From the NCBI RefSeq assembly GCF_003628755.1, contig NZ_CP029256.1, positions 2,685,585 through 2,749,584 on the forward strand: a DNA stretch of 64,000 bases, given 5' to 3'. Below are positions 1 through 27,165 of the stretch, in pieces (position 1 is the first letter of the stretch; every line of letters begins with the position of its first letter). The notes beneath the pieces are model-generated. The model had not been told where the DNA came from. It saw nothing but the letters and a program-made list of their open reading frames with translations, and searched no databases. Origin of the DNA: Christensenella minuta (lineage in GTDB: Bacteria > Bacillota > Clostridia > Christensenellales > Christensenellaceae). Both the position numbers and the translations under genes were made by a program.

Positions 1-300
1 TACATCTTCCGGAGTTGCCTTTTGTGAGAGGGAGAAAAGCATCCGTTTATCTGGATTGTCCTTGATATCCTGTAATAGTTGTATCATTTCATCGTCGGTT
101 TCTTTTGGTTCTCGGCCCAAGAGATAATCTATTGATACGGAAAAATAATCAGCGATTTTTTCCAATATTTCAGACCTTGGGGTATAACCGTTCTGCTTCC
201 AATTCGTAATACTAGCCTTGCTTATACCCATTTCAAATGCGGCCTTGCTAGGGGAAATTCCTTTAATTTTGCAAAGCTCAGCAAATCGCTCATAGAACAC
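1..300 (-). CDS. XRE-family prophage repressor (N-terminal part, runs off window)
   Basis: Leftward frame from a GTG at 298-300, preceded on its strand by AAGGATGTGA, reads MFYERFAELCKIKGISPSKA and stays open to the window edge (about 100 residues visible). Residues about 5-60 form a helix-turn-helix of the Cro/C1 type (AAFEMGISKASITNWKQNG), then the usual DYFSVSIDYLLG segment that ends this fold. It is divergent from a run of rightward early phage genes, the classic position of a lysogeny repressor controlling a two-way operator. The C-terminal part, and any integrase beyond it, lie outside the window. Family assignment is firm; the role as the prophage master repressor is inferred from position. 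Confidence 0.85.
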   Translation of the reverse strand, partial: MFYERFAELCKIKGISPSKAAFEMGISKASITNWKQNGYTPRSEILEKIADYFSVSIDYLLGREPKETDDEMIQLLQDIKDNPDKRMLFSLSQKATPEDV

Positions 301-491
301 TCAGATCACATCCTTAAAAAAGTTCATAAAAATTTACCTAATACGCTTGACAAGTTCATAAACATGTAATATTATGGTGTAAAAGTAAATGAACATGAAC
401 CAATATCGCGTATAAGTTTATATTCTTGCAATTTATTATATTGAATTAGTTCATGGAAGTCAACTATTATTCTAAAAAAGGAGGGGAAGAT
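301..491. promoter_or_regulatory. Prophage early promoter and repressor operator region
   Basis: A rightward sigma-70 promoter is visible: TTGACA at 347-352, 17 bp, TATTAT at 370-375. AGTTCATAAA occurs twice (321-330 and 353-362), the second inside the promoter spacer. Further GTTCAT/ATGAAC half-sites occur near 390-400 (GAACATGAAC) and 451-456. Such repeated half-sites between divergent repressor and early genes are expected operators for the XRE repressor. No gene is seen in this stretch. Confidence 0.65.
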
Positions 492-689
492 ATGATTCAA
501 GCATGGACGGCTGATGTTGTAGCGCGTATGCACATGGCAAAAATACAGAAAAAGCAACTTGCACGAGAAGCGGGTTATACACCTGAATATCTCGGGATGA
601 TTCTCGGTGGAAAGTGAGATACCAAGAAAGCAAAGGCTAATATACTCATAGCTCTGGAACGTCTTGAAGGGCAAGCAGACCAAAAATAA
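492..689 (+). pseudogene. Cro-like small HTH phage protein interrupted by an in-frame TGA
   Basis: After a strong AAAGGAGG site the ATG at 492 opens a 41-codon frame (MIQAWTADVVARMHMAKIQK...LGMILGGK) that meets TGA at 615-617 and then stays open in the same frame for 23 more codons (DTKKAKANILIALERLEGQ...) to TAA at 687-689. Read through, it is a 65-residue protein of a common phage family in which an Arg usually follows GK, so CGA to TGA is the simplest explanation. It is the first gene of the rightward early operon, where a Cro-like regulator is expected. A 41-residue truncated product or stop-codon readthrough are alternatives. Confidence 0.65.
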
Positions 690-730
690 CCACCACTACA
701 AAAAATTTATGAAAGAATGGAGAAAGAAAG

Positions 731-952
731 ATGACTAAAAAAGAATTTCTAGCAGAATTAAGAAATTACGGGATCAAGGGATTAAAGGCAAGAAGAACCG
801 CAAAGCAAATGTATGCCCTGCATGGTTCATACGACAATGCTTTTGCATCAATAAATGGTATGCAGAGGGGACTTCAGGGCGCTTTCACAGGATTAACAAA
901 GGCAATTAACATGATGGCAAAATCTATCGGCGGAGATATGGAGGAATGGTAA
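731..952 (+). CDS. Small early phage protein, unknown function
   Basis: 73 residues, basic N-terminal half and a hydrophobic-amphipathic C-terminal half (INGMQRGLQGAFTGLTKAIN). The start has AGAAAGAAAG upstream. Its TAA overlaps the ATG of the next gene (TAATG), so translation is probably coupled. I recognise no domain. It sits in the early operon before the replication genes. Confidence 0.6.
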   Translation: MTKKEFLAELRNYGIKGLKARRTAKQMYALHGSYDNAFASINGMQRGLQGAFTGLTKAINMMAKSIGGDMEEW

Positions 953-1203
953 TGAAAAAATTCAAACTTTTAAGACTGAAAATGTACGATCAGGACATTA
1001 CACAAGAGGATATTGCGCAGCATATTGCCAATGTTCTGAACAACACTTGCTCAATATCTCATATCAGCGATCTATTTAACGGGCGCAGTTCATGGCGCAT
1101 GGATGAAGCGTATGCCGTCCTTGACCTGCTCAAGGTTCCACATAGTGAGCTTCATAAGTACTTCCCTAAAGATGGGGAAAGGTCTTGCTTTGTGCAAATA
1201 TAG
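952..1203 (+). CDS. Small early phage protein, HTH-like
   Basis: The start at 952 (MKKFKLLRLKMYDQ) is preferred over an ATG six bases earlier because GAGGAA lies 8 bases upstream of it. 83 residues. The order DITQEDIAQHIANVLNNTC, SISHISDLFNGRSSW, RMDEAYAVLDLL looks like a four-helix Cro/C1-type DNA-binding fold in which a conserved start-at-serine recognition helix is followed by a second helix. It may be a second early regulator. The fold is inferred by eye. Confidence 0.6.
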   Translation: MKKFKLLRLKMYDQDITQEDIAQHIANVLNNTCSISHISDLFNGRSSWRMDEAYAVLDLLKVPHSELHKYFPKDGERSCFVQI

Positions 1204-1212
1204 GAGGCAGAT

Positions 1213-1545
1213 ATGGGAAACGTAGTACCGTTCATTCAGAAACCGGAAATATTGCGGTTCAAGAATTTTGCACTGCCGGAAGTCGCAATGAAGATTGTCT
1301 TTGTATTTGAAGGGCACGCAAAGTACTGTGAGCAGGCTGGAGAACTTGAGGACGCAGGATATTATCGAAAACTTGCCCAGGACATCATGGAGCATGGAAC
1401 CGACCCTTACATCAACGAAATATGCGACTACATATCAGACATATTTTGGTCGGTAGACGGCATGCCGTCGCAATATCTGGGTGAAAAGGATATAAGATTT
1501 CTTCAAGCTGTATGCGAATATCGGGAAGGAGAGATCGAGCAATGA
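1213..1545 (+). CDS. Early phage protein, unknown function
   Basis: 110 residues, start ATG 1213 after an AGGAGG site. Acidic, no signal peptide or membrane segment. No domain recognised. The last codons overlap the ATG of the following gene (ATGA), so the two are probably translationally coupled within the early operon. Confidence 0.6.
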   Translation: MGNVVPFIQKPEILRFKNFALPEVAMKIVFVFEGHAKYCEQAGELEDAGYYRKLAQDIMEHGTDPYINEICDYISDIFWSVDGMPSQYLGEKDIRFLQAVCEYREGEIEQ

Positions 1546-1880
1546 CAAGAGAAGAAAAGAATTTTATACAGTGGTTGTATTGGATTGGAAAAAATGTACG
1601 CAGAAAAGGCCTTCCGTACTTCAAAAATGGTACAAGGGTAACGGTAGATCAATACTACTCAATGCTCAGGAAGGTTATGCGCGAAAAAGAGGAACAGGAT
1701 CGTATGCTTACTGACAAGGAAACTGAAATATTCTTTGGCGAGATCGGGGAAAAGAGTTTCCGCGCGGGATATTACGGACATATGCCCTATGAAATCAAAT
1801 CTAAGTGGCAAAAGAAAAGATCGCTGCGCCAACAACGATCAATTCAGAAAGACACTCTATCTACGCCTATTTTACCATAG
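1542..1880 (+). CDS. Early phage protein, unknown function (basic)
   Basis: 112 residues from ATG 1542, which overlaps the preceding stop and follows GGAAGGAGAG. Very basic C-terminal third (KSKWQKKRSLRQQRS), which suggests nucleic-acid contact, but I recognise no family. An overlapping frame (about 1735-1974) on the same strand is treated as a shadow because the gene below has its own ribosome site. Confidence 0.55.
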   Translation: MTREEKNFIQWLYWIGKNVRRKGLPYFKNGTRVTVDQYYSMLRKVMREKEEQDRMLTDKETEIFFGEIGEKSFRAGYYGHMPYEIKSKWQKKRSLRQQRSIQKDTLSTPILP

Positions 1881-1899
1881 GCGGAAAGGAAAAAGCAAG

Positions 1900-1974
1900 A
1901 TGATTAATTTATTCAATATAATGGATTCTGTTAAACAGGAGAAAATAGCGCTTGAAAAGCAACAAGCATATTGA
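1900..1974 (+). CDS. 24-residue early phage peptide
   Basis: ATG 1900 follows GGCGGAAAGGAAAAAGC and encodes 24 residues (MINLFNIMDSVKQEKIALEK...) ending at TGA 1972-1974, which overlaps the ATG of the next gene. Coupled overlaps on both sides support a real gene, although it is very short. Confidence 0.4.
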   Translation: MINLFNIMDSVKQEKIALEKQQAY

Positions 1975-2159
1975 TGGCCGTCCACGATGCAGCACATCAT
2001 TCACCAAATAATCCCAAATGTTACGAAGGGGCTATCTACGCAGCAGAGGATATAGTCAGTAATACAGTAGTAATGTTGGAAGTGTTGAAAGATGGCATAT
2101 CCAATCATTTACAAGCAGAGCGCAAGAATATCACAAACGAGAAAGGCGGTACAAAGTGA
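1974..2159 (+). CDS. Small early phage protein, unknown function
   Basis: 61 residues from ATG 1974 (TGATG overlap with the preceding stop; a TTG one codon earlier is also possible). Reads MAVHDAAHHSPNNPKCYEGA. The stop overlaps the GTG of the next gene (GTGA). No family recognised. Confidence 0.5.
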   Translation: MAVHDAAHHSPNNPKCYEGAIYAAEDIVSNTVVMLEVLKDGISNHLQAERKNITNEKGGTK

Positions 2160-2383
2160 AAGATTATGAAGATATGACGCTTGAAGAACTGATCTATGAA
2201 TATGAAAAATTCGTAGGAAGGCAAACGACAAAAGCAGAAAGAGTGCTTCTGGCAATGATGCATACAGAGATAATAGATGCATACAAAAGAGGGTTTGTGG
2301 CAGGGACGATGAACGGCGCTGGATTGCCCGTAACACCGCCTGCGGGCGTGCATTCGACTAGGGAGGCGGCTCGAAATGAATAA
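2156..2383 (+). CDS. Small early phage protein, unknown function
   Basis: 75 residues starting at GTG 2156 with GAAAGGCGG upstream. Starts with an acidic helix (DYEDMTLEELIYEYEKFVGR) typical of many small siphovirus early proteins. C-terminal part is proline/glycine-rich (GLPVTPPAGV). The end overlaps the next gene by 8 bases. Function unknown. Confidence 0.55.
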   Translation: MKDYEDMTLEELIYEYEKFVGRQTTKAERVLLAMMHTEIIDAYKRGFVAGTMNGAGLPVTPPAGVHSTREAARNE

Positions 2384-2624
2384 ATACGAGATATGCGGGA
2401 AAGAATATCCAATAATCGGCCGCTTTGATGCAGTGTCGCCGGATGGTGTTGTAGCTTCGAATATACCGCTTTTAGATATCCCCATGATGACGGATTATCA
2501 ATGGCAACGGAATTGTTTAAAGCGCCGGATTGAACATCCAGAGTATTACGAAGTAATAGAGGACGTGCCCGCCACAATTGCACGTTTAGAAAAATGGCTT
2601 AATGAGCACAAAAAGAGGGATTAA
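2376..2624 (+). CDS. Small early phage protein, unknown function
   Basis: 82 residues from ATG 2376 with GGGAGGCGG upstream. Reads MNKYEICGKEYPIIGRFDAV; the C-terminal half is a basic/acidic helix (TIARLEKWLNEHKKRD). Phage origin is inferred only from the tight packing between early genes and the replication protein. Function unknown. Confidence 0.55.
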   Translation: MNKYEICGKEYPIIGRFDAVSPDGVVASNIPLLDIPMMTDYQWQRNCLKRRIEHPEYYEVIEDVPATIARLEKWLNEHKKRD

Positions 2625-2626
2625 TT

Positions 2627-3369
2627 GTGACATCTGGCGGTTTTATAAAACTTCATAGAGAAATGCTTGATAAGGCTATTTGGCGGGAATCAACCGCCGA
2701 ACAAAAAGTGATTCTTGTTACGCTGCTTATGATGGCCAATCATGCTGAAAATGAATGGGAATGGGGCGGGGAAAAATTCAAGGCTAAGCCAGGCCAATTC
2801 GTGACGAGCGAGGCCTCTATTGTGGAAAAATGCGGGAATGGGGTTAAGAGGCAAAGTGTAAGAACTGCGTTAAAAAAATTTGAAAAATATGAATTTCTGA
2901 CCCGCGAAGCAACCAAGAGAAATTCGCTCATAACCATTATAAATTGGGAAAAATATCAGGGTTCTAAAAGAAAGACTAACCAACGGGCTAACCAAGAACT
3001 AACCAAGAGCCAACCAACAGCTAACCAAGAGCTAACCACTAACAAGAATGAAAAGAATGATAAGAATATAAAGAGAGGGGGGGCTTTGACCCCGAGCCCC
3101 TCCTCATGGAAAAGGGATTCAGTCCAAAGATCGATGAGGCCATCAGAGAGTGGTGGAGGTACAAGAGTGAAAGAAAAGAGGCATACAAAGAAACGGGCTG
3201 GAAAAAACTTTTGTCTCAATTCCAGAATAAAATTAATGTCTATGGGGAACAGGCTTTGGTTGAAGCACTGGACAGGGCGATCTCTTCAGGGTGGAAGGGA
3301 TGGGATTTTCAAAGTAGCTTTACAAAATTGGCACAGGAAGATTCAGGGGAACACTACGAGGAGTTTTAG
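2627..3369 (+). pseudogene. DnaD/DnaB-loader-like replication protein, split by a frameshift at a G7 run
   Basis: GTG 2627 opens a frame whose first ~115 residues (GGFIKLHREMLDKAIWRES, then QFVTSEASIVEKCG and a winged-helix region ending TIINWEKYQG) are the N-terminal domain of phage replication-initiation proteins. A polar linker of Asn/Gln/Lys repeats follows. The expected C-terminal domain (MEKGFSPKIDEAIREWWRYK ... WDFQSSFTKLAQED) is present but in the -1 frame, from about 3076 to 3369. The two frames meet at seven Gs (3077-3083); one extra G would restore a single protein of about 247 residues. In the initial frame the ORF runs on to 3391 with an unrelated basic tail. Immediately upstream of the helicase gene, so the probable role is helicase loading at the phage origin. 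Confidence 0.7.
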
Positions 3370-3372
3370 GCA

Positions 3373-4728
3373 ATGGAAGAATTGGAACTAATCCCGCAGG
3401 ATATTGAAGCGGAGCGGAGCGTAATAGGGGCCGCGCTGCTGCGCCCGGAGTGTGCCTTTGAAGTGCTGTCAAGCTTGCAGAAGGATGATTTTTCAAGCAT
3501 CGTGCATATGCATGTCTATGAAGCGATGGAGAAGCTTGCAAAAGAGGGAATCACGCCGGATATTGTAACGGTCAATAGCAGGCTTGAAGCCCTGCATTTG
3601 GCAACGCCCGGAACCATCGAGTATTTAAGCGGGCTTACAGTCGAGACCATAACGACGAAAAATATTAAAAGCCACATCGACATTATCCGGGAGAAATCAA
3701 AGCGGCGGCGGCTGAAAGAAATTTGCGCAAGGGCAATCTCGGAAACGTCTGATCCGGAAAATGATATTGACGACATAGCAAACGGACTGTGTAACGCTAT
3801 CTATGATCTTGACCGGCGCAAGTCGGATGTAAAGCCGCTGAAAACGGCATATCAGGAAGCGTACGCCGAGATCGTGGAAGCGGTAGAAGCCAAAAAGGAA
3901 GGGAAGTTGCTTGGCATACAGACAGGGTTTCCAAGGCTTGACAAACGGCTTGCAGGACTGAAAAAGGGGGAATTGATCGTAATAGGCGCACGGTCCAGCA
4001 TGGGGAAAACCTCTTTTGCTATGAACATAGCGGATCACGTAAAGAAAGATCACAAGGTGCTGTACTTCTCGCTCGAAATGGTTCCATCCCAGTTGGCGTT
4101 ACGGCTCATGGCGGGGGACGCGAAAATCTCAATGCAAGACCTTAGAACCGGAGACATAGGCGGCAAGGAAATAGCGCGGCTTGGAACGGCGATACAGGGC
4201 GTGAATGGGAATATGTTTATCAGTGACAACTTCAAGCAAAGCACAACGGATATCATGGCGCTGTCTCAAAAGGTGCGCAGAGAATACGGGCTTGATCTAG
4301 TGATTATAGACTATTTGCAGCTTATCACACGCACAGAGTTTAAGGACAACGAAGTGCAGGCGCTTGACGCGATCACACGGCAGCTAAAAGTTATTGCCGG
4401 AGAATTGGAGGTACCCGTTATCCTCCTTAGCCAATTATCGCGGGAGGCTGATAAAGGCAACAAGGGCGGCCAGCGCGGGAGAGTACCGGAATTGTCAGAA
4501 CTGCGCGGGAGCGGAGCCATCGAGCAAAACGCAGATGTGGTGCTGTTGCTCCATAAGCAATCACGTGACAGCACGGAAGCCAAGTTGATTGTCGCCAAGC
4601 AGCGCAACGGTGCAACGGGCATAATGGGGCTGCACTGGAACGGCGAAACTACACGGTTTACAGAAGAAGACTCGATACACAAATATTACGGCAAAACACC
4701 GTTTGACAAACAGGAGGTAGAGTATTGA
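3373..4728 (+). CDS. dnaB: Replicative DNA helicase, DnaB family
   Basis: 451 residues, a normal length for DnaB. Residues ~5-105 are the N-terminal interaction domain (PQDIEAERSVIGAALL); ~175-440 are the RecA-like ATPase, with Walker A GARSSMGKT at 205-213, Walker B LVIIDYLQL near 310, and the LSQLSREAD and DVVLLLHKQ motifs further on. It unwinds phage DNA 5'-3' as a hexamer and recruits primase. ATG 3373 has GAGGAG nine bases upstream. It follows the replication-initiation protein, forming the replication module. It is phage-borne rather than the host gene, judging by its place. Confidence 0.93.
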   Translation: MEELELIPQDIEAERSVIGAALLRPECAFEVLSSLQKDDFSSIVHMHVYEAMEKLAKEGITPDIVTVNSRLEALHLATPGTIEYLSGLTVETITTKNIKSHIDIIREKSKRRRLKEICARAISETSDPENDIDDIANGLCNAIYDLDRRKSDVKPLKTAYQEAYAEIVEAVEAKKEGKLLGIQTGFPRLDKRLAGLKKGELIVIGARSSMGKTSFAMNIADHVKKDHKVLYFSLEMVPSQLALRLMAGDAKISMQDLRTGDIGGKEIARLGTAIQGVNGNMFISDNFKQSTTDIMALSQKVRREYGLDLVIIDYLQLITRTEFKDNEVQALDAITRQLKVIAGELEVPVILLSQLSREADKGNKGGQRGRVPELSELRGSGAIEQNADVVLLLHKQSRDSTEAKLIVAKQRNGATGIMGLHWNGETTRFTEEDSIHKYYGKTPFDKQEVEY

Positions 4729-4895
4729 TAACGCCATGCATGATACTGGAGGCACAAAAGAGGCTTAATCGGATCACGAGAGCCAAACCATACAAATACG
4801 CCATGCGGCAGTGTGGACAGGAAAGGCGGAGGTTCATCAGGGCGGCGCTGATGGCTAAGCTGCTAAACGATATTTATGACGAGTGGAGCGCATAA
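4725..4895 (+). CDS. Small basic phage protein, unknown function
   Basis: 56 residues, starting at TTG 4725, which overlaps the dnaB stop (TTGA) and lies 8 bases after AGGAGG. Highly basic (QKRLNRITRAKPYKYAMRQC, RRRFIRAALMAKLL), so nucleic-acid binding is likely. No family recognised. The non-ATG start is chosen because of the ribosome site and the coupled overlap. Confidence 0.5.
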   Translation: MITPCMILEAQKRLNRITRAKPYKYAMRQCGQERRRFIRAALMAKLLNDIYDEWSA

Positions 4896-4896
4896 T

Positions 4897-5337
4897 ATGA
4901 CGATACGCGAAAAGCTGGAGCAATACAGGGCGCTTGTGGTAGAAGTGCGCAACCTGGAACAACGGATCAGCGATATGCAAACACAGAAAGTGTCTTCCTG
5001 CGATATAGTAAAAATGTCGTCGCCTGAATTTCCTTTTACGGAGCACAGCAGTAAGGTGATAGGGCATGCCATAGATAAGACAACGCTTCAAAAGGTTGTG
5101 GGCATCTATAAAGACCGGCTTGAAAAGGCAATGGCTATGATGCTGGAAGTAGAAACGTTCATCTCATCCGTAGAAGACAGCGAGATGCGGGAGCTTTTGC
5201 GGCTGCGGTATATAGAGGGCTTGCCGTGGTGGAAAATACCCATGCGATTGGAAATGGCTGGTGATGGAACTTGGCAATGCAAAAAAGTTTATGGATTTTT
5301 GCAAAATTTTGAAAATCGTCAAGAAAATCAAGGTTGA
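4897..5337 (+). CDS. ArpU/RinA-like phage late-gene regulator (DUF1492-type)
   Basis: 147 residues from ATG 4897. Residues ~5-85 form a long coiled-coil (REKLEQYRALVVEVRNLEQR), and the C-terminal ~50 residues resemble sigma-70 region 4 (EMRELLRLRYIEGLPWWKIP followed by a second helix containing GTWQCKKVY). This architecture and its position directly before the terminase block are typical of the regulators that switch on phage packaging and structural genes. A hairpin terminator follows at 5371. Family call is by pattern; target promoters are not identified. Confidence 0.7.
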   Translation: MTIREKLEQYRALVVEVRNLEQRISDMQTQKVSSCDIVKMSSPEFPFTEHSSKVIGHAIDKTTLQKVVGIYKDRLEKAMAMMLEVETFISSVEDSEMRELLRLRYIEGLPWWKIPMRLEMAGDGTWQCKKVYGFLQNFENRQENQG

Positions 5338-5370
5338 TCCGTGGTAAAATGCTATTAGTGAAAAGTAGCT

Positions 5371-5401
5371 AAACGTCATCCTGATGGGTGGCGTTTTTGT
5401 T
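5371..5401 (+). terminator. Intrinsic terminator after the early operon
   Basis: AAACGTCATCC (5371-5381), loop TGAT, GGGTGGCGTTT (5386-5396) form an 11-bp stem with a few G.U pairs, followed by a T-rich run. It separates the late regulator from the non-coding region that starts three bases later. Confidence 0.75.
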
Positions 5402-5403
5402 TT

Positions 5404-5484
5404 GGGGATGTGAATGGTTTCGACGCGATGTAAGCCCGAAGCGGATATTCGCGGACACGAGTTCAATTCTCGTCATCTCCACCA
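5404..5484 (+). ncRNA. Miniature tmRNA-like / tRNA-like RNA with no tag-coding part
   Basis: GGGGATG (5404-5410) pairs with CATCTCC (5474-5480) in a 7-bp acceptor stem, with a G.U at the third pair, the alanine identity element of tmRNA and tRNA-Ala. Discriminator A and an encoded CCA follow (5481-5484). The 5' strand continues TGAATGGTTTCGACG, matching the conserved 5' end of tmRNA. ACGAG/CTCGT around TTCAATT (5457-5473) is a T arm. CGCGA (5424-5428) can pair with TCGCG (5449-5453) as a shortened P2-like helix. A normal tmRNA is about 350 nt and carries a tag reading frame and pseudoknots between the two halves; here only about 30 nt separate them. It is not a canonical tRNA, having no D arm or anticodon arm of normal form. 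Function is unknown. Confidence 0.7.
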
Positions 5485-5866
5485 GTGCCAGTGCGTGGGT
5501 AGGCATGGAAACGCACGAAAATCCGCGAATAAAATGCAGTGAACCGTATGCCTGCGGAGAATTGCGCGGGGGCGGGCTGGAGCGGACTGGCTAGAGATCA
5601 GCGGCCCCTTTTATAAGATTCCATGCGGAGAGGTCAATAAAGTCACGTGAAAGCGGGTAGGCGCATACCGGTATAATCAGGCGGCATTTGGGAAGCCGTC
5701 GAGTGCCAACGGGAATAGCCGTGCGCCCAAGCTGGCTGATACCCGAAAAAACCAAGCCGTAGGTTTCCTGCACAGATAAGAGCAGGTTTTAGAGCGGAAT
5801 AGGATTAAATGATTGCCGCTTGCCCGCAGCGACATATAAATAGCGGGCTTGAAACAAAAAGGCCAT
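5485..5866 (+). ncRNA. Candidate structured non-coding RNA or packaging-site region
   Basis: About 380 bp, GC-rich, no convincing protein frame, dense in complementary segments: GTGCGT/ACGCAC (5491-5496, 5511-5516); TGCAG/CTGCG (5535-5539, 5552-5556); GGGGC with inner GCTG pairing to CAGC and GCCCC, followed by TTTT (5569-5612); CCTGC/GCAGG then TTTT (5767-5790); GCCCGC/GCGGGC (5822-5848). TCCGCGAAT at 5522-5530 is an exact 9-nt complement of 5447-5455 in the tmRNA-like RNA. Perfect palindromes TCACGTGA (5643-5650) and ATACCGGTAT (5665-5674) also occur, and could be a terminase recognition site. Either a large phage RNA (compare GOLLD and ROOL classes) or a packaging site would fit; I cannot decide. 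Confidence 0.45.
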
Positions 5867-5867
5867 G

Positions 5868-5891
5868 AAAGACTCCTGATGGGGTCTTTTT
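5868..5891 (+). terminator. Terminator-like hairpin before the packaging genes
   Basis: AAAGACTCC (5868-5876), TGAT loop, GGGGTCTTT (5881-5889), then TT. The sequence TCCTGATGGG is shared with the terminator at 5371-5401, so the non-coding region is bracketed by two hairpins of the same design. Confidence 0.6.
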
Positions 5892-5914
5892 GGTTTACCA
5901 AAAGGGATGGAGAT

Positions 5915-6088
5915 ATGGACAAATACAATCCTGAGCATTATTTGGATTTGACCGCCGCGATTGCGGTAAGCCGGGCAGACAGAAGGAGTAAGCCTAAAAT
6001 GAAACATACAAGACATAGCTATCGCATTGGCGACCTGTATAGATTCGCATGGGTAAACGGGAGGTTAACGTTGTGGCGGCTAAGCTAA
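5915..6088 (+). CDS. Small conserved-type phage protein before terminase
   Basis: 57 residues from ATG 5915 with GGGATGGAG upstream (MDKYNPEHYLDLTAAIAVSR). The pattern (short N-terminal DPTA-like motif, basic middle, C-terminal beta-like GDLYRFAWVNGRLTLW) recalls small proteins commonly placed just before the small terminase gene in Firmicutes siphophages. Overlaps the terminase start by 16 bases. Function unknown. Confidence 0.55.
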   Translation: MDKYNPEHYLDLTAAIAVSRADRRSKPKMKHTRHSYRIGDLYRFAWVNGRLTLWRLS

Positions 6089-6567
6089 CGCCGAGGCAAA
6101 AAGCATTTGCGGAATTTTACATTCAGCTAGGCAACGCTACGGAAGCGGCGAAGCGCGCGGGGTATTCAGAGAAAACAGCAAATAGAATTGGCGCAGAAAA
6201 CTTGACAAAACCTGTTATACGTGAATACGTCGATAAAGTGCAGTCAGAAATATCCTCAAGCCGCATAGCAGACGCGCGAGAAGTGCAAGAAACATTAACG
6301 CGCATATTGCGTAGGGAAGAAACCGAAAGTGTTGTAATCGTCTGCAAGACCCGTAAAAGCTCGTATGACAAAGCGGGGAAACGAAAGACGGAAGAAAAAG
6401 AAACCCCGGAGATCGTGCGGATTCCAGCAAAGATCAGCGACGTGAATAAAGCCGCTGAACTGCTGGGGAAGGTTCATGGTCTATATACCGATAAGGTTGA
6501 TCTTTCGGGCGGCGTGGATTTGAGGATACAGGTAGACTATGGCAACGATCAAGGTTCAAGCGAATAA
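6073..6567 (+). CDS. terS: Terminase small subunit
   Basis: 164 residues from GTG 6073, which has GGGAGG at the right distance; an in-frame ATG 24 bases upstream lacks one. Residues ~5-60 are the Terminase_2 HTH domain (LTPRQKAFAEFYIQLGNATE, AAKRAGYSEKTANRIGAENL), which recognises the packaging site. A basic/acidic central region and a C-terminal portion (KISDVNKAAELLGKVHGLYT) complete the family pattern. It overlaps the large subunit by 29 bases, and the two form the packaging motor with the portal. Confidence 0.88.
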   Translation: MAAKLTPRQKAFAEFYIQLGNATEAAKRAGYSEKTANRIGAENLTKPVIREYVDKVQSEISSSRIADAREVQETLTRILRREETESVVIVCKTRKSSYDKAGKRKTEEKETPEIVRIPAKISDVNKAAELLGKVHGLYTDKVDLSGGVDLRIQVDYGNDQGSSE

Positions 6568-7771
6568 AATATTTGCACCAGTAGATAAAAGCAAATGCCG
6601 CTATGTGCTTCTGAAAGGGAGCGCAGGAAGCGGGAAAAGCGTTGACACTGCGCAGCATTATATATTGCGTCTGATGCAGGATAGGGGTCGAAACCTCTTG
6701 GCATTGCGTAAATCGGAGGTAACGAACCGTGATAGCACTTTCGCGGAGTTATCCGGGGCAATATCGCGCATGGGGCTGTGGGACTACTGGAAGCCTATAA
6801 TGTCGCCGCTTGAACTGCGGTGTGTCAACGGGGCGAAAATCATCTTTCGCGGCATGAACGACGACAGACAGCGCGAGAAGATCAAGTCTATCACGTTTGA
6901 AAAAGGAAGCCTTACAGATATATGGCTCGAGGAAGCGACGGAATTTTCAAGGGCGGATGTGGACATACTAGATGACCGTTTGAGAGGAAAACTCCCGGAT
7001 GGTCTTTTTTATCAGATGCGGTTTACGTTCAATCCGGTGGCGGCAACACACTGGATTAAACATGATTATTTTGATACGGTTGATCCTAATGTTTTTACAC
7101 ACCATAGCACATACTTAGACAATCGTTTTATAGATGCGCCATACCATGCGCGCATGATGCGGCGCAAGGAGCTAGACCCGGACGGGTATCGGGTGTATGG
7201 CCTCGGAGAATGGGGCGAAGTCGGCGGGCTTATCATTACTAACTGGACGGCAGAAGATATGAGCCAAGACCCAAACGACTACGACAGCGTTTCACTTGGT
7301 CAAGACTTTGGTTTTAACCACGCTAACGCTATTTTATTGCTTGGATTTAAGGACGATGAAATATACGTCTTAAAGGAGCAATACGATTACGAGAAGGACA
7401 CGGGAGAGATAATAGCGGCTTGCATCATGCCGAAACACGTAATGATGTACTGCGACAGCGCGGAGCCAGACAGGATTAAAACATGGCGTTCTTCCGGGTA
7501 TAAAGCCGTGGCAGTTAAGAAAGAGCAAGGGAGCGTACAAGCGCAGATCGACTATTTAAAAGCGCATAAAATACACATTCATCCTTCATGCGTAAATCTT
7601 ATGAAGGAGCTCCAACAATGGAAGTGGAAGCGTGACGAAAAGCGGGATGTGTGGCTAGATGAACCCGTTCCATTTCTTGACGATGCAATCGCCGCGCTGC
7701 GGTATGGAATAGAGCCAGTGCGCAAGGTGCGCAGACTACAGAGTTTTTCAAAGGAAGGGCTAGGACTTTGA
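6539..7771 (+). CDS. terL: Terminase large subunit (PBSX/Terminase_3 type)
   Basis: 410 residues. N-terminal ATPase: Walker A GSAGSGKS at 27-34, Walker B region LTDIWLEEATEFS near 125-137. C-terminal RNase H-like nuclease: DFGFNHAN near 255, YCDSAEPDRIK near 305, and FLDDAIAALRYGIEP near 380 supply the acidic residues. It pumps DNA into the procapsid and cuts concatemers. Start ATG 6539 lies inside the small-subunit gene and the stop overlaps the portal start, so the packaging genes are coupled. Confidence 0.94.
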   Translation: MATIKVQANKIFAPVDKSKCRYVLLKGSAGSGKSVDTAQHYILRLMQDRGRNLLALRKSEVTNRDSTFAELSGAISRMGLWDYWKPIMSPLELRCVNGAKIIFRGMNDDRQREKIKSITFEKGSLTDIWLEEATEFSRADVDILDDRLRGKLPDGLFYQMRFTFNPVAATHWIKHDYFDTVDPNVFTHHSTYLDNRFIDAPYHARMMRRKELDPDGYRVYGLGEWGEVGGLIITNWTAEDMSQDPNDYDSVSLGQDFGFNHANAILLLGFKDDEIYVLKEQYDYEKDTGEIIAACIMPKHVMMYCDSAEPDRIKTWRSSGYKAVAVKKEQGSVQAQIDYLKAHKIHIHPSCVNLMKELQQWKWKRDEKRDVWLDEPVPFLDDAIAALRYGIEPVRKVRRLQSFSKEGLGL

Positions 7772-9108
7772 TAGAGTATAGAATCAACAAAGACAAAGAA
7801 CTTACTGTTGACGAAATCCGGCAGCTTATAACGAATAGCGCGGCAGAGGCGGCGCGTAGGCAGTATTTGCACCAGCAGTATGACGGGAAGCAGGACATTT
7901 TAAATCGCACTGTTTCAGACCCGACCAAGCCGAACAACAGGCTTGTGAATAATTATCCGGCGTATATCACAGACAGTTACACGGGTTATTTCATGGGTGT
8001 ACCCGTCACGTATAAGGCGGCAGAGGGCGCGCCGGATGATATGCTGATTGAGATAAAAGCGCTATTTGACTATAACGACGAACAGAGCGAAAACGCAGAA
8101 CTCGCAAAAGAAGCCAGCATCACGGGCGACGCTTATGAGCTTTTATATCTGGATAGTGATTCAAACGTTAGATTTACGGCGTTGGATTACACGGAAACCT
8201 GCATTGCGGTATATGATGCAGCCCTAGAGGGTGAAATGCTGTACTTCATCCGGGCATACGATGTGCTAAAAGACCTATTCTCAAACGAAAAAACGCAAAC
8301 GGTTGAGGTGTACGATCAAAAGCAGGTATCATACTATACCGCAGATGCTGCTACGCTAAAGCTTACTGGACAAAGACTACATTACTTCAATGATGTTCCC
8401 GTTGTGGTATATAAAAACAACAAAGAGGGCATAGGCGATTTTGAGCGCGAAATGACACTTATAAACGCCTATGACAAGATGCAGAGCGACAGCGCGAACG
8501 ACCTCGAATATTTTACTGACGCCTATTTAGTGCTGCGTGGTCTTGGCGGGACGACTGCGGAAGATGTATTTGCAATGAAGGAGCAGCGCGTACTGTCTTT
8601 GTCGGATGCGGATTCTCACGCTGAATGGCTAATAAAACAGATTAATGATACGTACATCGAGAACCTTAAAAACCGTATAGATGATGATATTCACAAATTT
8701 AGCAAGTGCCCGAAACTTACGGATGAATCGTTTGCAAATAACCTTTCCGGCATTGCGATCAAGTATAAACTGATTGGATTTGAGAATGTAACGAGCGTAA
8801 AAGAGAGATATTTTAAAAAGGCACTACAGCGAAGAATTGAATTGATTTGCAATGTGCAAAATTTGTTTGCTAAGAATTACGATTACACCATGATAGATAT
8901 GACGTTTACCCGCAATATCCCCGTGAACGCGACAGAAGCCGCCGACATGGTAAACAAGATAACCGGGGTAGTATCGCGTGAAACGGCATTAGGGCAATTG
9001 CCATTTGTAACAGATGTGGAGGACGAAATAAGCAAGATAGATTCCGAAAAGCCAACATACGAAATAGCGTATCAGGAAGACGACGAAGGGCAGCCGGTGT
9101 TTAAGTGA
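7768..9108 (+). CDS. Portal protein (SPP1 gp6 family)
   Basis: 446 residues from TTG 7768, which overlaps the terL stop and follows AAGGAAGGG. Hallmarks of the SPP1 gp6-like portal are visible: NRLVNNYPAYITDSYTGYFM, the stem/wing region with AYDKMQSDSANDLEYFTDAY, and a C-terminal part with DMTFTRNIPVNATEAAD. Twelve copies form the DNA entry ring and join the terminase to the head. A C-terminal acidic tail (YQEDDEGQPVF) is typical. Confidence 0.9.
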   Translation: MIEYRINKDKELTVDEIRQLITNSAAEAARRQYLHQQYDGKQDILNRTVSDPTKPNNRLVNNYPAYITDSYTGYFMGVPVTYKAAEGAPDDMLIEIKALFDYNDEQSENAELAKEASITGDAYELLYLDSDSNVRFTALDYTETCIAVYDAALEGEMLYFIRAYDVLKDLFSNEKTQTVEVYDQKQVSYYTADAATLKLTGQRLHYFNDVPVVVYKNNKEGIGDFEREMTLINAYDKMQSDSANDLEYFTDAYLVLRGLGGTTAEDVFAMKEQRVLSLSDADSHAEWLIKQINDTYIENLKNRIDDDIHKFSKCPKLTDESFANNLSGIAIKYKLIGFENVTSVKERYFKKALQRRIELICNVQNLFAKNYDYTMIDMTFTRNIPVNATEAADMVNKITGVVSRETALGQLPFVTDVEDEISKIDSEKPTYEIAYQEDDEGQPVFK

Positions 9109-9944
9109 TGGGCAGCGCGGAATATTGGCGAAAGCGTACGCTTGAAAGTGAAGCTTACGCGAACGGGTTAGCTGAATCCGAGATAGTGAGACAACAGAAG
9201 CTATACAAGGCGGCATACAAACAGCTTGCTAAGCAGATAGACGGCTTGTATATCCAAGTGGTGGAGTACGGCGAGGAGTTAAGCAGGACGCAGTTGTGGA
9301 ACTTTTCTAGATGGTATCAGCTTGAACAGCGGCTAGGCAAGATCACGGGAGAGATTACCACAAACCAGATACGCGGGACGGAACGAACGCTTATAAAGGT
9401 GTTTGAAAAGACAATGGGCGTAACGCTTAAAGATTTGAAACAAAGCGGCGCGCCCGTCAACCTGTCCTTTGATATGCTGGACAACGTGCAGATCAAGCAA
9501 CTTGTGAATACCGCATGGAATGATGCTTCTTTCTCCCAGCGTTATATAGAAAACGGTATCAAAATGGGCGAGAGGGTGAAACAAGATATTACCGATATGC
9601 TTATATCTGGTAAATCACCCGGAGCTATTAAGAAAGCATTGCAAGGCGACCTTAACATGAACTACTACGCGGCTGATCGCCTTGTGCGGACGGAAGCAAA
9701 TCACTACTACAACGATGCGGCAATGAAATCTTATAAGGCCGCCGGGGTGATAATGGTTGAATACATCGCTGAAGTGGATGATCGTATTTGTGATGAATGC
9801 GAGGGTTATTCCGGTCAGATTTACCCGATAGATGGCGCGCCAACGCTACCAATTCACCCGAATTGCCGTTGCTGTTATGCCCCTGTAGTGGAAGTGGGCG
9901 ACGATTTAACGGAAGCGGCAGAGCTACTAAAAAAATATGCTTAA
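9108..9944 (+). CDS. Minor head protein (SPP1 gp7 / Mu F-like)
   Basis: 278 residues from ATG 9108 (a GTG one codon upstream is possible). Helical N-terminal half (SAEYWRKRTLESEAYANGLA), then the Phage_Mu_F domain with RTEANHYYNDAAMKSYKAAG and the Cys/His pattern CDECEGYSG ... HPNCRC. These proteins are packaged in small copy number near the portal and help head morphogenesis or DNA ejection. Overlaps the portal stop. Followed by an intrinsic terminator. Confidence 0.88.
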   Translation: MGSAEYWRKRTLESEAYANGLAESEIVRQQKLYKAAYKQLAKQIDGLYIQVVEYGEELSRTQLWNFSRWYQLEQRLGKITGEITTNQIRGTERTLIKVFEKTMGVTLKDLKQSGAPVNLSFDMLDNVQIKQLVNTAWNDASFSQRYIENGIKMGERVKQDITDMLISGKSPGAIKKALQGDLNMNYYAADRLVRTEANHYYNDAAMKSYKAAGVIMVEYIAEVDDRICDECEGYSGQIYPIDGAPTLPIHPNCRCCYAPVVEVGDDLTEAAELLKKYA

Positions 9945-9945
9945 T

Positions 9946-9969
9946 AGAAGCTTAACAGCTTCTTTTTTA
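9946..9969 (+). terminator. Intrinsic terminator after the minor head gene
   Basis: AGAAGC (9946-9951), loop TTAACA, GCTTCT (9958-9963) and a run of six T. It probably lowers transcription between the packaging genes and the abundant scaffold/capsid genes. Confidence 0.75.
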
Positions 9970-10040
9970 TTACGCTTTATAGGGCTGTGCGACAACAGAA
10001 CTAAAGGGGCGGCAATGCCGCAACTTACGGAGGTTAAGAA

Positions 10041-10676
10041 ATGGAAAAATTTTTACAGGGTTATTTGCTTAACAGGCTTACACCGATGATGGACGCAGAT
10101 GGGGGCGCGGCCGGAGACCCGGGCGGCGAACCAGATGGAGGCGGTTCCGGCGGTGGAAAGCCGGACGGTGGCGAAGGTAAAACTTACACCGAAGCCGAGA
10201 TTGCAGAATTATTGCAAGCGGAAGCGGACAGAAGGGTTACGGCGGCACTGAAAAAGCAAAAGAGAGAGTATGAGGAAAAGCTATCCCTTTCAAAGCTGGA
10301 TGAGGAACAGCGCAAGGAAGCTGAAAAAGACCTTGAAATTAAGCGCCTTAATGAGCGTATTTCAGAAATGAGCACGAGCATTAACAAAGGCGAGGTAATC
10401 AAAGTTTTGGCGGCGCGTGGGCTTGATCCCGCTTTTGCCGACATCATCACGATTGGGGACGACATCAAAGAAGCGCAGGCGCGCATTGATACGCTCGACA
10501 AACTGTTTAAACAGGCGGTTGAGGCTACGGTCAAGAAGCGCATTGCGGGAGATGCGCCAGCAAAAGGTAGCGGGACGGGAACGCCCACGACCCTAAAGGG
10601 GATGAATGTTCAGCAGAGGGCAGAGCTTTACGAGAGCAACCCGGAACTATTTAGAAAGCTAAAAGGAGCAGAGTAA
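10041..10676 (+). CDS. Capsid scaffold protein (DUF4355 type)
   Basis: 211 residues from ATG 10041 after GGAGG. Gly/Asp-rich N-terminal segment (residues ~20-50), then a long coiled coil (AEADRRVTAALKKQKREYEE to ~120) and a C-terminal helical part that ends NPELFRKLKGAE. Low-complexity head, coiled-coil middle and position directly before the capsid gene identify a scaffold of the Firmicutes siphophage type. It directs procapsid assembly and is lost from mature heads. Confidence 0.85.
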   Translation: MEKFLQGYLLNRLTPMMDADGGAAGDPGGEPDGGGSGGGKPDGGEGKTYTEAEIAELLQAEADRRVTAALKKQKREYEEKLSLSKLDEEQRKEAEKDLEIKRLNERISEMSTSINKGEVIKVLAARGLDPAFADIITIGDDIKEAQARIDTLDKLFKQAVEATVKKRIAGDAPAKGSGTGTPTTLKGMNVQQRAELYESNPELFRKLKGAE

Positions 10677-11558
10677 ATGGCAAATATTGTATATCCTAAC
10701 GAAGTTCTTGAATCTATAGTTGAAGACATTTTAGAAACGCGGCTTAACACCAGAACACTTATGACGGTTGATATGTCGCTTAGCGGCGCAGCCGGCATGA
10801 AAAAAGTAATTAACCGCTATACCTATACGGGGTACGTTGAAAGCCTCTCGCAGGGCGAGAAGAACACACAGCGCGGCAAACTTGAATTTCTGCCTTATGA
10901 GTATGAAGTAGGCGTAGCTCAACAGGTATGGGATTACCATGATGAAGAAGTGATGAAAGATCCAGGTATTGTCAATCTCGGCGTACAGGGAATGGCTAAT
11001 GCTATGTGGAATGACATGAACCAGAAATTTTTTGATGAACTGCGCAAGGCTGAAATTTTCCAGACGATTGAATCAGCGAACAAGATCGCGTATGACGATA
11101 TTGTTGACGCAATCGCGGCCCTTGACCTTGAGGACGAAAGCCAGCTTTATATCTTGTGCGGGCTGAATACCAAGGCTGCACTTAGGAAAAACAGCCTTTT
11201 TACAGGCGCGAAACAAGGCGAGATCATCTTTACCGGGCAGATTGGCGACATTAGCGGACTTCCCGTTGTGTACTCTAAAAAAGTGCCTGCCGATCTTGCT
11301 TACGTAGCAACCAAAGAAGCGGTAACGCTTTTCACCAAAAAGGATAGCGAGATTGAGCAGGAGAGGGACAAGGAAGCGAGAAAAAATACGATTATTTCCC
11401 GTAAGGTGAACCTCGTTGCCCTCACCAACGCGAAATGCCTTTGTATGATCGGCAAAGCGTCGGCTACCCCGGTTCTCACACAATCTAGCATTGCGGCGGG
11501 AATAATAAGACCATATCCGGTACGAACGCGGCGGGGGCGGTTGTTCGCGTGTACGTGA
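10677..11558 (+). CDS. Major capsid protein (N4 gp56-like family)
   Basis: 293 residues, ATG 10677 directly after the scaffold stop with AAGGAGC upstream. The order of strands and helices fits the N4-gp56/HK97-fold capsids of siphophages: TLMTVDMSLSGAAGMKKVIN, LEFLPYEYEVGVAQQVWDYH, VNLGVQGMANAMWNDMNQKF, then AKQGEIIFTGQIGDISGLPV and a C-terminal part ending CLCMIGKASATPVL. From about residue 272 the frame becomes unrelated (RPYPVRTRRGRLFACT), while the -1 frame carries an Ig-like domain. The true C-terminus is therefore either lost by a 1-base deletion or reached by frameshifting. Confidence 0.88.
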   Translation: MANIVYPNEVLESIVEDILETRLNTRTLMTVDMSLSGAAGMKKVINRYTYTGYVESLSQGEKNTQRGKLEFLPYEYEVGVAQQVWDYHDEEVMKDPGIVNLGVQGMANAMWNDMNQKFFDELRKAEIFQTIESANKIAYDDIVDAIAALDLEDESQLYILCGLNTKAALRKNSLFTGAKQGEIIFTGQIGDISGLPVVYSKKVPADLAYVATKEAVTLFTKKDSEIEQERDKEARKNTIISRKVNLVALTNAKCLCMIGKASATPVLTQSSIAAGIIRPYPVRTRRGRLFACT

Positions 11559-11704
11559 ATGATATTCCGGTAGGCTATGCGGCTGTAGATGGCACTACAT
11601 GGACGTATACTATTGACGCAGTTTCATCGGGCGATAAGGTAAAAGTCTCTGCAATGACGGACGGGAAAATTCCAGCGTTCTGCGCAGCGGTTACGGTCTC
11701 TTAA
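11489..11704 (+). other. Bacterial Ig-like domain in the -1 frame of the capsid gene
   Basis: Between TAG 11486-11488 and TAA 11702-11704 the -1 frame of the capsid gene is open and encodes GNNKTISGTNAAGAVVRVYV and on through TWTYTIDAVSSGDKVKVSAM. TxSGTxAAGAxVxVYVN is the start of a bacterial/phage Ig-like fold of about 65 residues. It has no start codon of its own with a ribosome site. A single added G in GGG 11498-11500 would fuse capsid and Ig domain in frame (IAAGNNKTISG). Ig domains attached to capsids by frameshifting are known in tailed phages, but no canonical slippery heptamer is present here. Confidence 0.65.
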
Positions 11705-11724
11705 TCTACTACAGGGGGCAAGTC

Positions 11725-12015
11725 ATGAGCGCGACGGATAAATTAAAGGCGTACATCCCCGAAATCCAAAACGCTACAGCCGCCGCTATAATCGAAGATA
11801 CCGAACAGGCATTTAAGGAGCTTTGCAACGTCGAGGCCATACCCGATGAAGCAAGCTCCTTGATTGTTGAAATGGCGGTTATACGGTACAACCGATTAGG
11901 CAGCGAGGGTTTAGCGTCACAAGGCTATAGCGGCGCATCAGAGAGCTTTATAAACGGTCTGCCGGATGATCTATTGCGTAGGCTTGGGAAGTACAGGAGG
12001 CTTAAAACGCTATGA
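11725..12015 (+). CDS. Head-tail connector protein (YqbG/gp6-like)
   Basis: 96 residues from ATG 11725 after GGGGGC. Helical, with IVEMAVIRYNRLGSEGLASQ and YSGASESFINGLPDDLLRRL, the conserved end of the phage connector family (RYNRxGxEGxxSQSyxGxSxSF). Forms a ring below the portal. First gene of the connector block; its stop overlaps the next ATG. Confidence 0.85.
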   Translation: MSATDKLKAYIPEIQNATAAAIIEDTEQAFKELCNVEAIPDEASSLIVEMAVIRYNRLGSEGLASQGYSGASESFINGLPDDLLRRLGKYRRLKTL

Positions 12016-12320
12016 TTAGCAGGCGAATGAAAGCGGTTAAGATCGTGGAGCGTGATATAAGCGATTCGGTGTTTGGAAAAGATTCCAGGCCGCGAGAAGT
12101 AAAGACCGTGCAAATGGCAATCTGCACGCTTACGGGCGCGGAAGTCCAATATTTAAACATCAACGCTCAAGGAAGCTCACACGTTGGATTGACGCTTGAC
12201 AGGACGCTTAAACACGGGCAAGAGGTACACGACGGAGATGACGTTTATAGAATCACGTACCCAAACAACGATGCGCGGTTATCACAGATTTTTCTTGAAA
12301 GGGTGATAGCAGATGGCTAA
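12012..12320 (+). CDS. Head closure / head-tail adaptor protein
   Basis: 102 residues from ATG 12012, overlapping the connector stop. Size, order and a beta-rich C-terminal part (LKHGQEVHDGDDVYRITYPN) match the head-closure proteins (SPP1 gp16-like) that seal the connector. Assignment rests mainly on gene order. Confidence 0.65.
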   Translation: MISRRMKAVKIVERDISDSVFGKDSRPREVKTVQMAICTLTGAEVQYLNINAQGSSHVGLTLDRTLKHGQEVHDGDDVYRITYPNNDARLSQIFLERVIADG

Positions 12321-12744
12321 GACAGAAGTAGACGCAAGCGAAGTTTTAAGGAACTTTGAGAACTTTGTTAAAAAAGCCTTGCCGGACGCTATCAAAGATG
12401 GTCTTGAACAAGCTTGCCTTGTGGTCGAAAATGCTGCAAAAAATAATTGCCCTGCAGATAAAGGCACTTTGCGCGCAAGCATAACTCACGTTGTGGAAGA
12501 AAACGGCGAAAACCTTGAAGGATATGTAGGCAGTGGGATAGATTACGCGCCATATATTCATCAAGGTACAGGGTTATTTGCCATAGATGGAAATGGGCGA
12601 AAAAATGTTCCTTGGCGGTATCAAGACGAAAAAGGCGAATGGCACACAACCGAAGGGCAGCGACCCAATCCGTTTATATCCGACGCAATAGAACAAAACC
12701 GGGCAAAGATCATAAATTGCTTTAAGGACGTGATGAAGAAATGA
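12313..12744 (+). CDS. HK97 gp10-like tail component
   Basis: 143 residues from ATG 12313. The central pattern LVVENAAKNNCPADKGTLRA ... YVGSGIDYAPYIHQGTG and a C-terminal RPNPFISDAIEQN are the signature of HK97-gp10_like proteins, a connector or tail-completion component. Overlaps both neighbours by a few bases. Confidence 0.87.
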   Translation: MAKTEVDASEVLRNFENFVKKALPDAIKDGLEQACLVVENAAKNNCPADKGTLRASITHVVEENGENLEGYVGSGIDYAPYIHQGTGLFAIDGNGRKNVPWRYQDEKGEWHTTEGQRPNPFISDAIEQNRAKIINCFKDVMKK

Positions 12745-13103
12745 TAATTGAAGACGTTGTAAGCGCCCTAAAAGCAGACCCCGCCGTAAGCGGCTATGTG
12801 AGAGATCGTATGACCGCATTTTCGACCGACTCAACAGATGATGGTATTGTTTTCAATTTCTCGCCGCAGACGGATGACAAGATTTCCCGCGTTGATAAGC
12901 TGGAAATCATGATTATATCCAAGAGCGTTGCACGGGTGTACGAGATTCACGAGGCTGTGAAGAATGTATTGCTTACGCTTGGAGATGATCCGTTTAATGA
13001 TACGATTTTAGGCGTTGAAATAAACGGCGGCGGCGTTCTTGAAAATCTGAAAACAGGAACCTACCACCACACAACATATTATTATTTAAGGAGCAAAGTA
13101 TAA
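12741..13103 (+). CDS. Tail completion protein
   Basis: 120 residues from ATG 12741. Alpha/beta pattern with DKISRVDKLEIMIISKS and VYEIHEAVKNVLLTLGDDPF, as in the tail terminator/completion family that lies between gp10-like and tail-tube genes. It shares its last A with the next ATG (TAATG). Confidence 0.7.
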   Translation: MIIEDVVSALKADPAVSGYVRDRMTAFSTDSTDDGIVFNFSPQTDDKISRVDKLEIMIISKSVARVYEIHEAVKNVLLTLGDDPFNDTILGVEINGGGVLENLKTGTYHHTTYYYLRSKV

Positions 13104-27088: not shown

Positions 27089-27165
27089 GTGCCAGTAGCT
27101 CAGCTGGATAGAGTGTTTGACTACGAATCAAAAGGTCGGGGGTTCGAATCCCTTCTGGCACACCA
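27089..27165 (+). tRNA. tRNA-Arg (ACG)
   Basis: 77 nt with encoded CCA. Acceptor GTGCCAG pairs with CTGGCAC; D arm AGCTCAGCTGGATAGAG; anticodon loop CTACGAA with anticodon ACG reading CGU/CGC/CGA; T arm CGGGGGTTCGAATCCCTTC region; discriminator A. Its 3' half from 27121 is duplicated at 56569, so this gene is the integration target of the 29.4-kb element. Confidence 0.95.

Follow-up and report, generated by a model that had tools for sequence, protein, structure and literature searches.

What would a prophage gain from an RNA that keeps the tRNA-like domain (TLD) of tmRNA and discards its tag part? The question is raised by 81 nt within the window, the 64,000-nt stretch of the Christensenella minuta genome analyzed here. 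A preliminary description had read these 81 nt as a TLD with the tag part removed, and had proposed a new kind of trans-translation decoy or regulator. Here, we ask whether the domain is genuine, how widely it occurs, to what it is joined, and what it might do.

A tag-less tRNA-like domain in a prophage

The Rfam tmRNA model (RF00023) matched window positions 5404–5484 with 70.2 bits (E = 2.7e-25), and both model ends, 1 and 374, were matched. In the alignment, 18 nt replace 312 model positions; approximately 290 model positions, among them the pseudoknot ring between the two TLD halves, are absent. The acceptor strand GGGGATG pairs with CATCTCC (5474–5480) over 7 bp, including G3.U70, and A73 (5481) and an encoded CCA (5482–5484) follow; TGGTTTCGACG stands directly after the 5′ strand. 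TTCGAC and GGAC are 28 nt apart, and these 28 nt hold no tag reading frame with a resume codon and a stop. The letters agree with what had been described, a 7-bp acceptor stem with G3.U70, an encoded ACCA, a T arm and a tmRNA-specific 5′ run, and together with the UUCGAC motif these are the elements of a tmRNA TLD. A covariance model built from the TLDs of other phages (R2, with the window outside the training set) scored 57.8 bits (E = 1.1e-12) over 5404–5481. The window is thus confirmed to contain a tmRNA TLD minus the tag part, and positions 5404–5484 are a closed domain (hereafter mini-TLD), the acceptor letters of which are those of the host ssrA.

ARAGORN, run on the window, made no call at the mini-TLD, and the anticodon arm of a tRNA is absent there. 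Folding energy was unremarkable (z = -1.08; 25 of 200 shuffles were equally good), hence the TLD would have escaped notice by this measure alone. A permuted tmRNA was rejected, given a weak match (20.6 bits against a cut-off of 47) and acceptor halves in unpermuted order. Nor do we favor an attachment-site remnant, as neither half of the TLD is missing and the P2 helix covaries.

The location in a prophage, also part of the preliminary description, is borne out by a phage regulator gene upstream and a terminase small subunit gene downstream (Table 1). In the window (phrog_51) and in its twin, a terminase small subunit gene follows within ~0.7 kb downstream of the RNA, and the same placement was found in L231 (phrog_606; GP3_package) and in a sister-species prophage, L228 (phrog_309). 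The copy in L230 has a DNA methyltransferase gene on one side and a metallophosphatase gene on the other. The window also holds a single tRNA-Arg(acg) gene at 27089–27165.

Table 1. Features of the mini-TLD locus in window coordinates.
Feature	Positions	Strand	Basis
Upstream gene, phage transcriptional regulator	4876..5337	+	phrog_36, 1e-15; DUF1492 just above cut-off
Terminator-like hairpin directly upstream of TLD	5371..5396	+	scan; 1 found vs 1.2 expected in shuffles
Mini-TLD: acceptor stem, UUCGAC D-loop analogue, capped P2 helix, T arm, A73, encoded CCA	5404..5484	+	RF00023, R2
Acceptor 5′ strand GGGGATG; G3 of G3.U70 at 5406	5404..5410	+	letters read directly
P2 helix and capping hairpin, 28 nt, where tmRNA has tag frame and pseudoknots	5425..5452	+	
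GGAC and T arm (GGAC-ACGAG-TTCAATT-CTCGT)	5453..5473	+	
Domain in all four C. minuta copies; unmatched in two sister-species RNAs	5485..5610	+	
Structured domain common to sister-species prophages (L013, L018; 94 percent)	5611..5809	+	
CptI-like antitoxin pseudoknot unit, single copy, 3′ end of conserved block	5810..5853	+	88 percent to L019 repeat; S1/S2 pairing
Terminator-like hairpin after RNA	5868..5891	+	by eye; not listed by terminator scan
Downstream gene, terminase small subunit	6049..6567	+	phrog_51, 8.2e-43

TLD-only RNAs across phages

Viral contigs searched for a pattern that fixed only UUCGAC and GGACNNGNGTTCRANTC yielded at least 120 stretches, and two narrower patterns added more. 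Pooled, the scans (window-type loci L020, L021 and L023 included) gave at least 152 matches at 152 loci, comprising at least 111 distinct sequences, two of which are of the window type. Among the matches listed, 106 of 111 distinct sequences formed 7/7 acceptor pairs and 5/5 T-stem pairs, the acceptor register being the one that paired best, with G at position 1 slightly favored; L034, L036, L055, L093 (whose D arm marks it as an ordinary tRNA) and L102 fall outside this count. All 106 intact-stem sequences listed carry G3.U70 and A73, although the patterns fixed neither, so the alanine identity elements singled out in the window recur throughout; conservation of UUCGAC is by construction of the patterns. 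An encoded CCA is present in 28 of these 106 distinct sequences and absent from the other 78, hence 3′ tRNA processing is expected.

With R2, TLD-folding sequences among the matches listed scored at least 48 bits, and tRNAs and doubtful cases at most 36.5 bits. Two hundred genomes of the order were searched with R2 under stricter filters, and only the C. minuta genome exceeded 36.5 bits, the best match listed elsewhere being 36.5. Across a genome collection of 84,980 species (one genome per species; records near the C. minuta genome may be omitted), the pattern GGTTTCGACN{10,40}GGAC... found nine stretches, four of which reached 48 bits or more. The same pattern occurs in 85 of 122 viral loci among those listed, so the viral excess holds like for like, in raw counts rather than per base searched. 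The TLD-only form is therefore rare in cellular genomes.

Isolated phages carry it too. Five Streptomyces phages scored with R2 as follows: Shaeky, 91.4; LuckySocke, 84.8; BRock, 74.0; Riptide, 57.6; and Alone3, 56.1 bits. In all five the TLD lies inside a tRNA cluster, at a site with no annotated feature, and full-length BLAST matches were also found in GiJojo and pSt2308. BLAST searches of the phage and plasmid collections with the window unit found nothing, and BLAST with two other TLDs gave no full-length match (L070, none; L047, T-arm pieces only). Matches in Microbacterium phage Dismas (32.5 bits), Pseudomonas phage SM1 (29.4 and 23.5), a Salinibacter phage (27.3) and cyanophage S-SSM7 (30.1) had tRNA-background R2 scores and were not counted, and crAss-like cr130_1 (L148) had no match. 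We noted that the weak TLD-like matches in Dismas (L147:2439–2527) and SM1 (L208:1362–1533, in a gap of ~1.4 kb where no genes are annotated) are possible divergent relatives.

Gene finders overlook these RNAs: ARAGORN correctly named 0/60 TLDs in 60 viral loci, the TLD of L113 falling inside a 324-nt tmRNA call, and any tRNA was found on the DNA scanned in only 17 of the 60. RF00023 found the TLD RNA in 10/10 viral loci tested and in the window, a check with an Infernal tmRNA model that had been suggested. SmpB was found in 0/26 phage records (fragments included), so host SmpB would be the partner. Collectively, RNAs that are little more than a TLD are found in the window and in other phages, the window having ~370 nt more conserved alongside. 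Phage TLD-only RNAs are a broad class, and its breadth seems new.

Among 16 viral loci scanned for neighbors, the TLD lies by head or packaging genes in six (L028, L042, L056, L061, L100 and L108), by genes for replication or nucleic-acid enzymes in five, and by genes of no known function in five; the head/packaging share is biased, since the loci were hand-picked, many for large adjoining ORFs. One example lies between protease and major capsid genes. The major capsid gene is downstream of the mini-TLD in L028, L042, L056 and L061. In L113, a Pistol self-cleaving ribozyme (6093–6154, minus strand; 51.9 bits) precedes the mini-TLD of this phage by ~105 nt, both being on one strand.

The fold itself is under selection. 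In a set of 65 sequences (thinned at 0.88 similarity; L034, L036, L055, L093, L081 and L091 left out), acceptor pairs 1–3 are invariant, whereas both partners depart from the commonest pair in 13 sequences at pair 4, 36 at pair 5 and 22 at pair 6. P2 pairs 1–4 are formed in 62, 62, 60 and 59 of 63 sequences, with both-side changes in 39, 17, 39 and 36. Alignment A3 comprises 21 of 23 sequences with matching spacer lengths (L031 and L117 were dropped) and served to build R2; an earlier model, R1, from 39 sequences was set aside. In A3, where a small 3-bp hairpin caps P2, 98.0 percent of helix cells are paired, compared with 68.3 after shuffling, and covariation is 0.763, compared with 0.162 after shuffling and at most 0.135 for slid structures; 0/500 shuffles attained either value. 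The number of pairs with any both-side change, 15, was equalled in 44/500 shuffles. The P2, T and acceptor stems thus covary among homologs, as a covariation check proposed for the locus had called for.

A larger RNA with a CptI-like end

Five places in the C. minuta genome (2.97 Mb, one contig) scored above the Rfam tmRNA cut-off, namely the full ssrA (193.8 bits), which the host smpB gene directly adjoins (PF01668, 1.3e-61), and four 81-nt copies with 70.2 bits each. The mini-TLD is the 5′ start of a conserved block of ~450 nt, from 5404 to about 5853 in the window, and the four copies are 99–100 percent identical. The 81-nt extent first assigned to the RNA is right for the TLD itself, but the conserved unit is larger, a four-copy ~450-nt RNA ending in a CptI-like pseudoknot. 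Copies L011 and L012 lie in quite different flanks; their conservation begins within a few bases of the first base of the TLD and fades just past GCGGGCTT, at the RNA end. The surroundings of the window and L010 copies are nearly the same (99.98 percent identity over 13.3 kb), so these two copies are not independent. Window 1–13307 is 99.98 percent identical to L229 5696–19001, which lies ~25 kb upstream of it in this genome, a likeness that may reflect either two near-identical prophages or a duplication.

A sister species (G001) has two RNAs, L013 and L018, with the 3′ part only (query 208–454, 94 percent) and no TLD; the match continues through the antitoxin-like end. In a DNA search of 101 genomes, this 3′ part was found only in C. 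minuta and G001, and in four further genomes the match was limited to ~34 nt at the T-arm end. By eye, part of the 5′ domain of the G001 RNAs also occurs just upstream of the TLD in one C. minuta copy (L004/L011). Because the G001 RNAs have no TLD and part of their 5′ domain lies just upstream of the TLD in L004/L011, the TLD looks like a module added to a larger prophage RNA. A 5′ stretch, GCCGCAACGAGG...GGAACACC, is common to a G001 RNA (L013, about 1447–1500) and one C. minuta copy (L011, about 1424–1500). In Rfam, the RNA had no match to GOLLD, ROOL or other known large RNA families. Its 3′ part holds a GTTTTAGAGC stretch resembling a type II CRISPR repeat. An RNA anti-CRISPR was rejected, as the C. 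minuta genome has no Cas1 match, and the arrays next to Cas1 in two sister species are built of different repeats, with no 11-mer in common with the RNA.

At a third place in G001, L019, only the last 48 nt of the RNA were matched (88 percent, E = 5.9e-10). Here, two antitoxin units with a spacing of 46 nt are preceded by a promoter-like site (11/12) and followed by a terminator-like hairpin and then by a CptIN family toxin gene (NF047359, 9.8e-37; PDB CptN 4rmo, 1.3e-20; AbiQ model, 0.0015; no Pfam match), which a TenpIN toxin gene (NF047358, 2.1e-39) adjoins. CptI is described, in the available text, as an H-type pseudoknot of 45 nt, its first loop a single nucleotide and its second A-rich (PMC4627078). 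Drawn by eye from four sequences only, the window unit as an H-type pseudoknot forms 6/6 S2 pairs and 6/7 S1 pairs, and 5/6 S2 pairs are changed on both sides against one or other of the two genuine CptI repeats. The window RNA has a single unit, not the tandem repeats (~45 nt) of CptI.

The CptIN family cut-off was passed by one of 200 genomes of the order, G001; the C. minuta genome gave no match, and neither did 14 control genomes. Pfam PF13958 (type III toxin) had no match in six genomes, the control likewise being without a match, and this search was set aside. In G001, the toxin gene and the RNA are ~11 kb apart on one IMG/VR viral contig. L228:2620–5866 (G001) is a prophage module of TenpIN and CptIN type III toxin-antitoxin genes, with a CI-like repressor on one side and an integrase on the other.

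Proposed function, alternatives and known systems

Taking these results together, we regard it as an even call that a phage-borne, tag-less TLD inhibits host trans-translation by titrating SmpB and, in this genus, is joined to a CptI-like unit. RNase P and the 3′ tRNA machinery would trim the TLD and AlaRS would charge it. Abundant in infection, it would bind SmpB (and EF-Tu) and enter or occupy stalled ribosomes while offering no tag frame; SmpB would be titrated and host trans-translation inhibited. In this genus, a larger prophage RNA would have acquired the TLD at its 5′ end, and the CptI-like unit at its 3′ end may bind and silence the CptN toxin of cells or rival prophages. The proposal builds on the observed structure, alanine identity pair, phage spread and CptI-like linkage, and is supported by a contrast among the matches listed, where G3.U70 and A73 are invariant and acceptor pairs 4–6 change freely. 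Mao et al. (2009) reportedly performed the original TLD inhibition experiment. SmpB titration is the best mechanism because a TLD-only molecule has been published as a tmRNA inhibitor: in the available text, a molecule like the RNA of mycobacteriophage DS6A is a strong inhibitor of tmRNA whether or not it can be charged, with SmpB titration as a possible cause (PMC4131195), and in E. coli the endogenous tmRNA is inhibited by the DS6A form (PMC11915505). Since the non-chargeable TLD also inhibits, titration alone leaves the invariance of G3.U70 unexplained; ribosome entry as Ala-TLD would explain it.

Some observations speak against this proposal. The TLD of the window begins right after a terminator-like hairpin, promoter scans gave no convincing promoter for the window RNA, and in the predicted minimum-energy fold of the whole 467-nt RNA the acceptor stem is lost. 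For the antitoxin end, the C. minuta genome lacks a CptIN match, and available excerpts of PMC5086642 state that two CptIN systems tested showed no anti-phage activity, and that AbiQ clones with 0.8 repeats were inviable and 1.8 repeats were enough; a single unit may hence be too little. Antitoxin mimicry by a phage nevertheless has precedent, as phage TE escaped ToxIN via an expanded pseudo-ToxI (PMC5086642, PMC5449768, in the available text). With slightly less than even confidence, we extend the proposal to a composite decoy RNA, in which a 5′ alanylatable tmRNA head would block ribosome rescue and a 3′ pseudoknot would disarm prophage-borne CptN, its modules being swapped between prophages and the RNA belonging to a large, largely unannotated phage-specific class. 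The suggested swapping is based on the sister-species versions that have the antitoxin end and a different 5′ domain.

Several other explanations were weighed. The TLD might be processing punctuation, a place for RNase P and RNase Z to cleave late phage transcripts and so define the 5′ end of the downstream RNA or of a capsid or terminase mRNA, charging being incidental. The head/packaging neighbors in 6/16 loci (a biased share of a hand-picked sample), the position of the window TLD at the head of a longer RNA, and the 78 listed copies without an encoded CCA are all consistent with such a role, but any tRNA would serve, and G3.U70, A73 and the tmRNA D-loop analogue would not be needed; we consider it unlikely. 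It is similarly improbable that the RNA performs a tag-less rescue, as guessed for mitochondrial tmRNAs without a tag frame, in which Ala-TLD with SmpB would take the nascent chain, exit as peptidyl-TLD and free ribosomes for the phage. We know of no route for ribosome release from an A-site TLD, which counts against it. The effect reported in E. coli, in the text available to us, is also inhibition, although the invariant charging elements among the matches listed would suit rescue and tag-less mitochondrial and plastid tmRNAs are described in the accessible part of PMC11915505.

The CptI-like antitoxin unit on the same RNA fits a further idea, that the TLD is bait diverting host systems that attack or sense tRNA or tmRNA (tRNA-modifying toxins, or the predicted RNA-targeting CoCoNuTs) and leaves trans-translation aside. 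SmpB-like domains are reported in predicted RNA-targeting defence (PMC11090510, in its available text), but the RNA activity of CoCoNuTs is itself a prediction, and we give this idea equally little weight. Least probable by far is a functionless relic, the two ends of a full tmRNA after a deletion. Beyond the missing middle nothing points to it, and the compensated stems already contradict it, as do the invariant 3-70 pair in 106 distinct intact-stem sequences listed and the near-identical block whose border coincides with the TLD although its flanks differ. The same 106 sequences exclude a recent deletion in this strain only, one of the circumstances that the preliminary description had named as fatal to its reading.

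A natural TLD-only RNA with invariant charging elements across many phages would make blocking or bending trans-translation a common phage strategy, and would supply small inhibitors of natural origin for a pathway that has otherwise been probed with synthetic drugs. If the composite reading is correct, one phage transcript would carry several RNA mimics, an RNA counterpart to anti-defence gene islands.

How new is this RNA? In the available text of Hudson et al. 2014 (PMC4131195) and the 2025 tmRNA database paper (PMC11915505), DS6A has an RNA that is little more than a TLD. The window RNA is therefore not wholly new, and of the earlier suggestion of a new kind of decoy or regulator, the role stands as the best mechanism with published support, but the novelty does not. 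In the literature searched, mostly outside subscription journals and bioRxiv and in part as excerpts, DS6A is the only TLD-only phage case, with neither a wide class nor a TLD-antitoxin joint described. What seems new here is the breadth of the class and a TLD that starts a four-copy ~450-nt RNA with a CptI-like 3′ pseudoknot. By description only, the DS6A and window RNAs are alike in being phage-borne and little more than a TLD; DS6A, by contrast, is a single phage case, for which the available text mentions no larger RNA or antitoxin unit.

Full tmRNAs, whether host ssrA or full and two-piece phage forms, share with the mini-TLD the G3.U70 acceptor, UUCGAC, T arm and start of P2, whereas the mini-TLD has no tag frame or inner pseudoknots and its P2 is capped after ~7 bp. 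Tag-less mitochondrial tmRNAs and plastid forms of ~65 bp (PMC11915505, in the text available) likewise have a TLD without the coding part, but are organellar rather than phage-borne. The window 3′ unit resembles CptI, as far as the available text of PMC4627078 describes it, in being an H-type pseudoknot with two stems, a very short L1 and an A-rich L2, and differs in being a single unit that has no adjoining toxin gene and is joined to a TLD. Pseudo-ToxI of phage TE illustrates, in the excerpts available, that phages can use antitoxin mimics (PMC5086642, PMC5449768). GOLLD and ROOL are, like the window RNA, large structured prophage RNAs, and according to the available text GOLLD linkers at times hold tRNAs (PMC12286853); the window RNA, which has no Rfam match to them, is ~450 nt long and carries a TLD in place of a tRNA.
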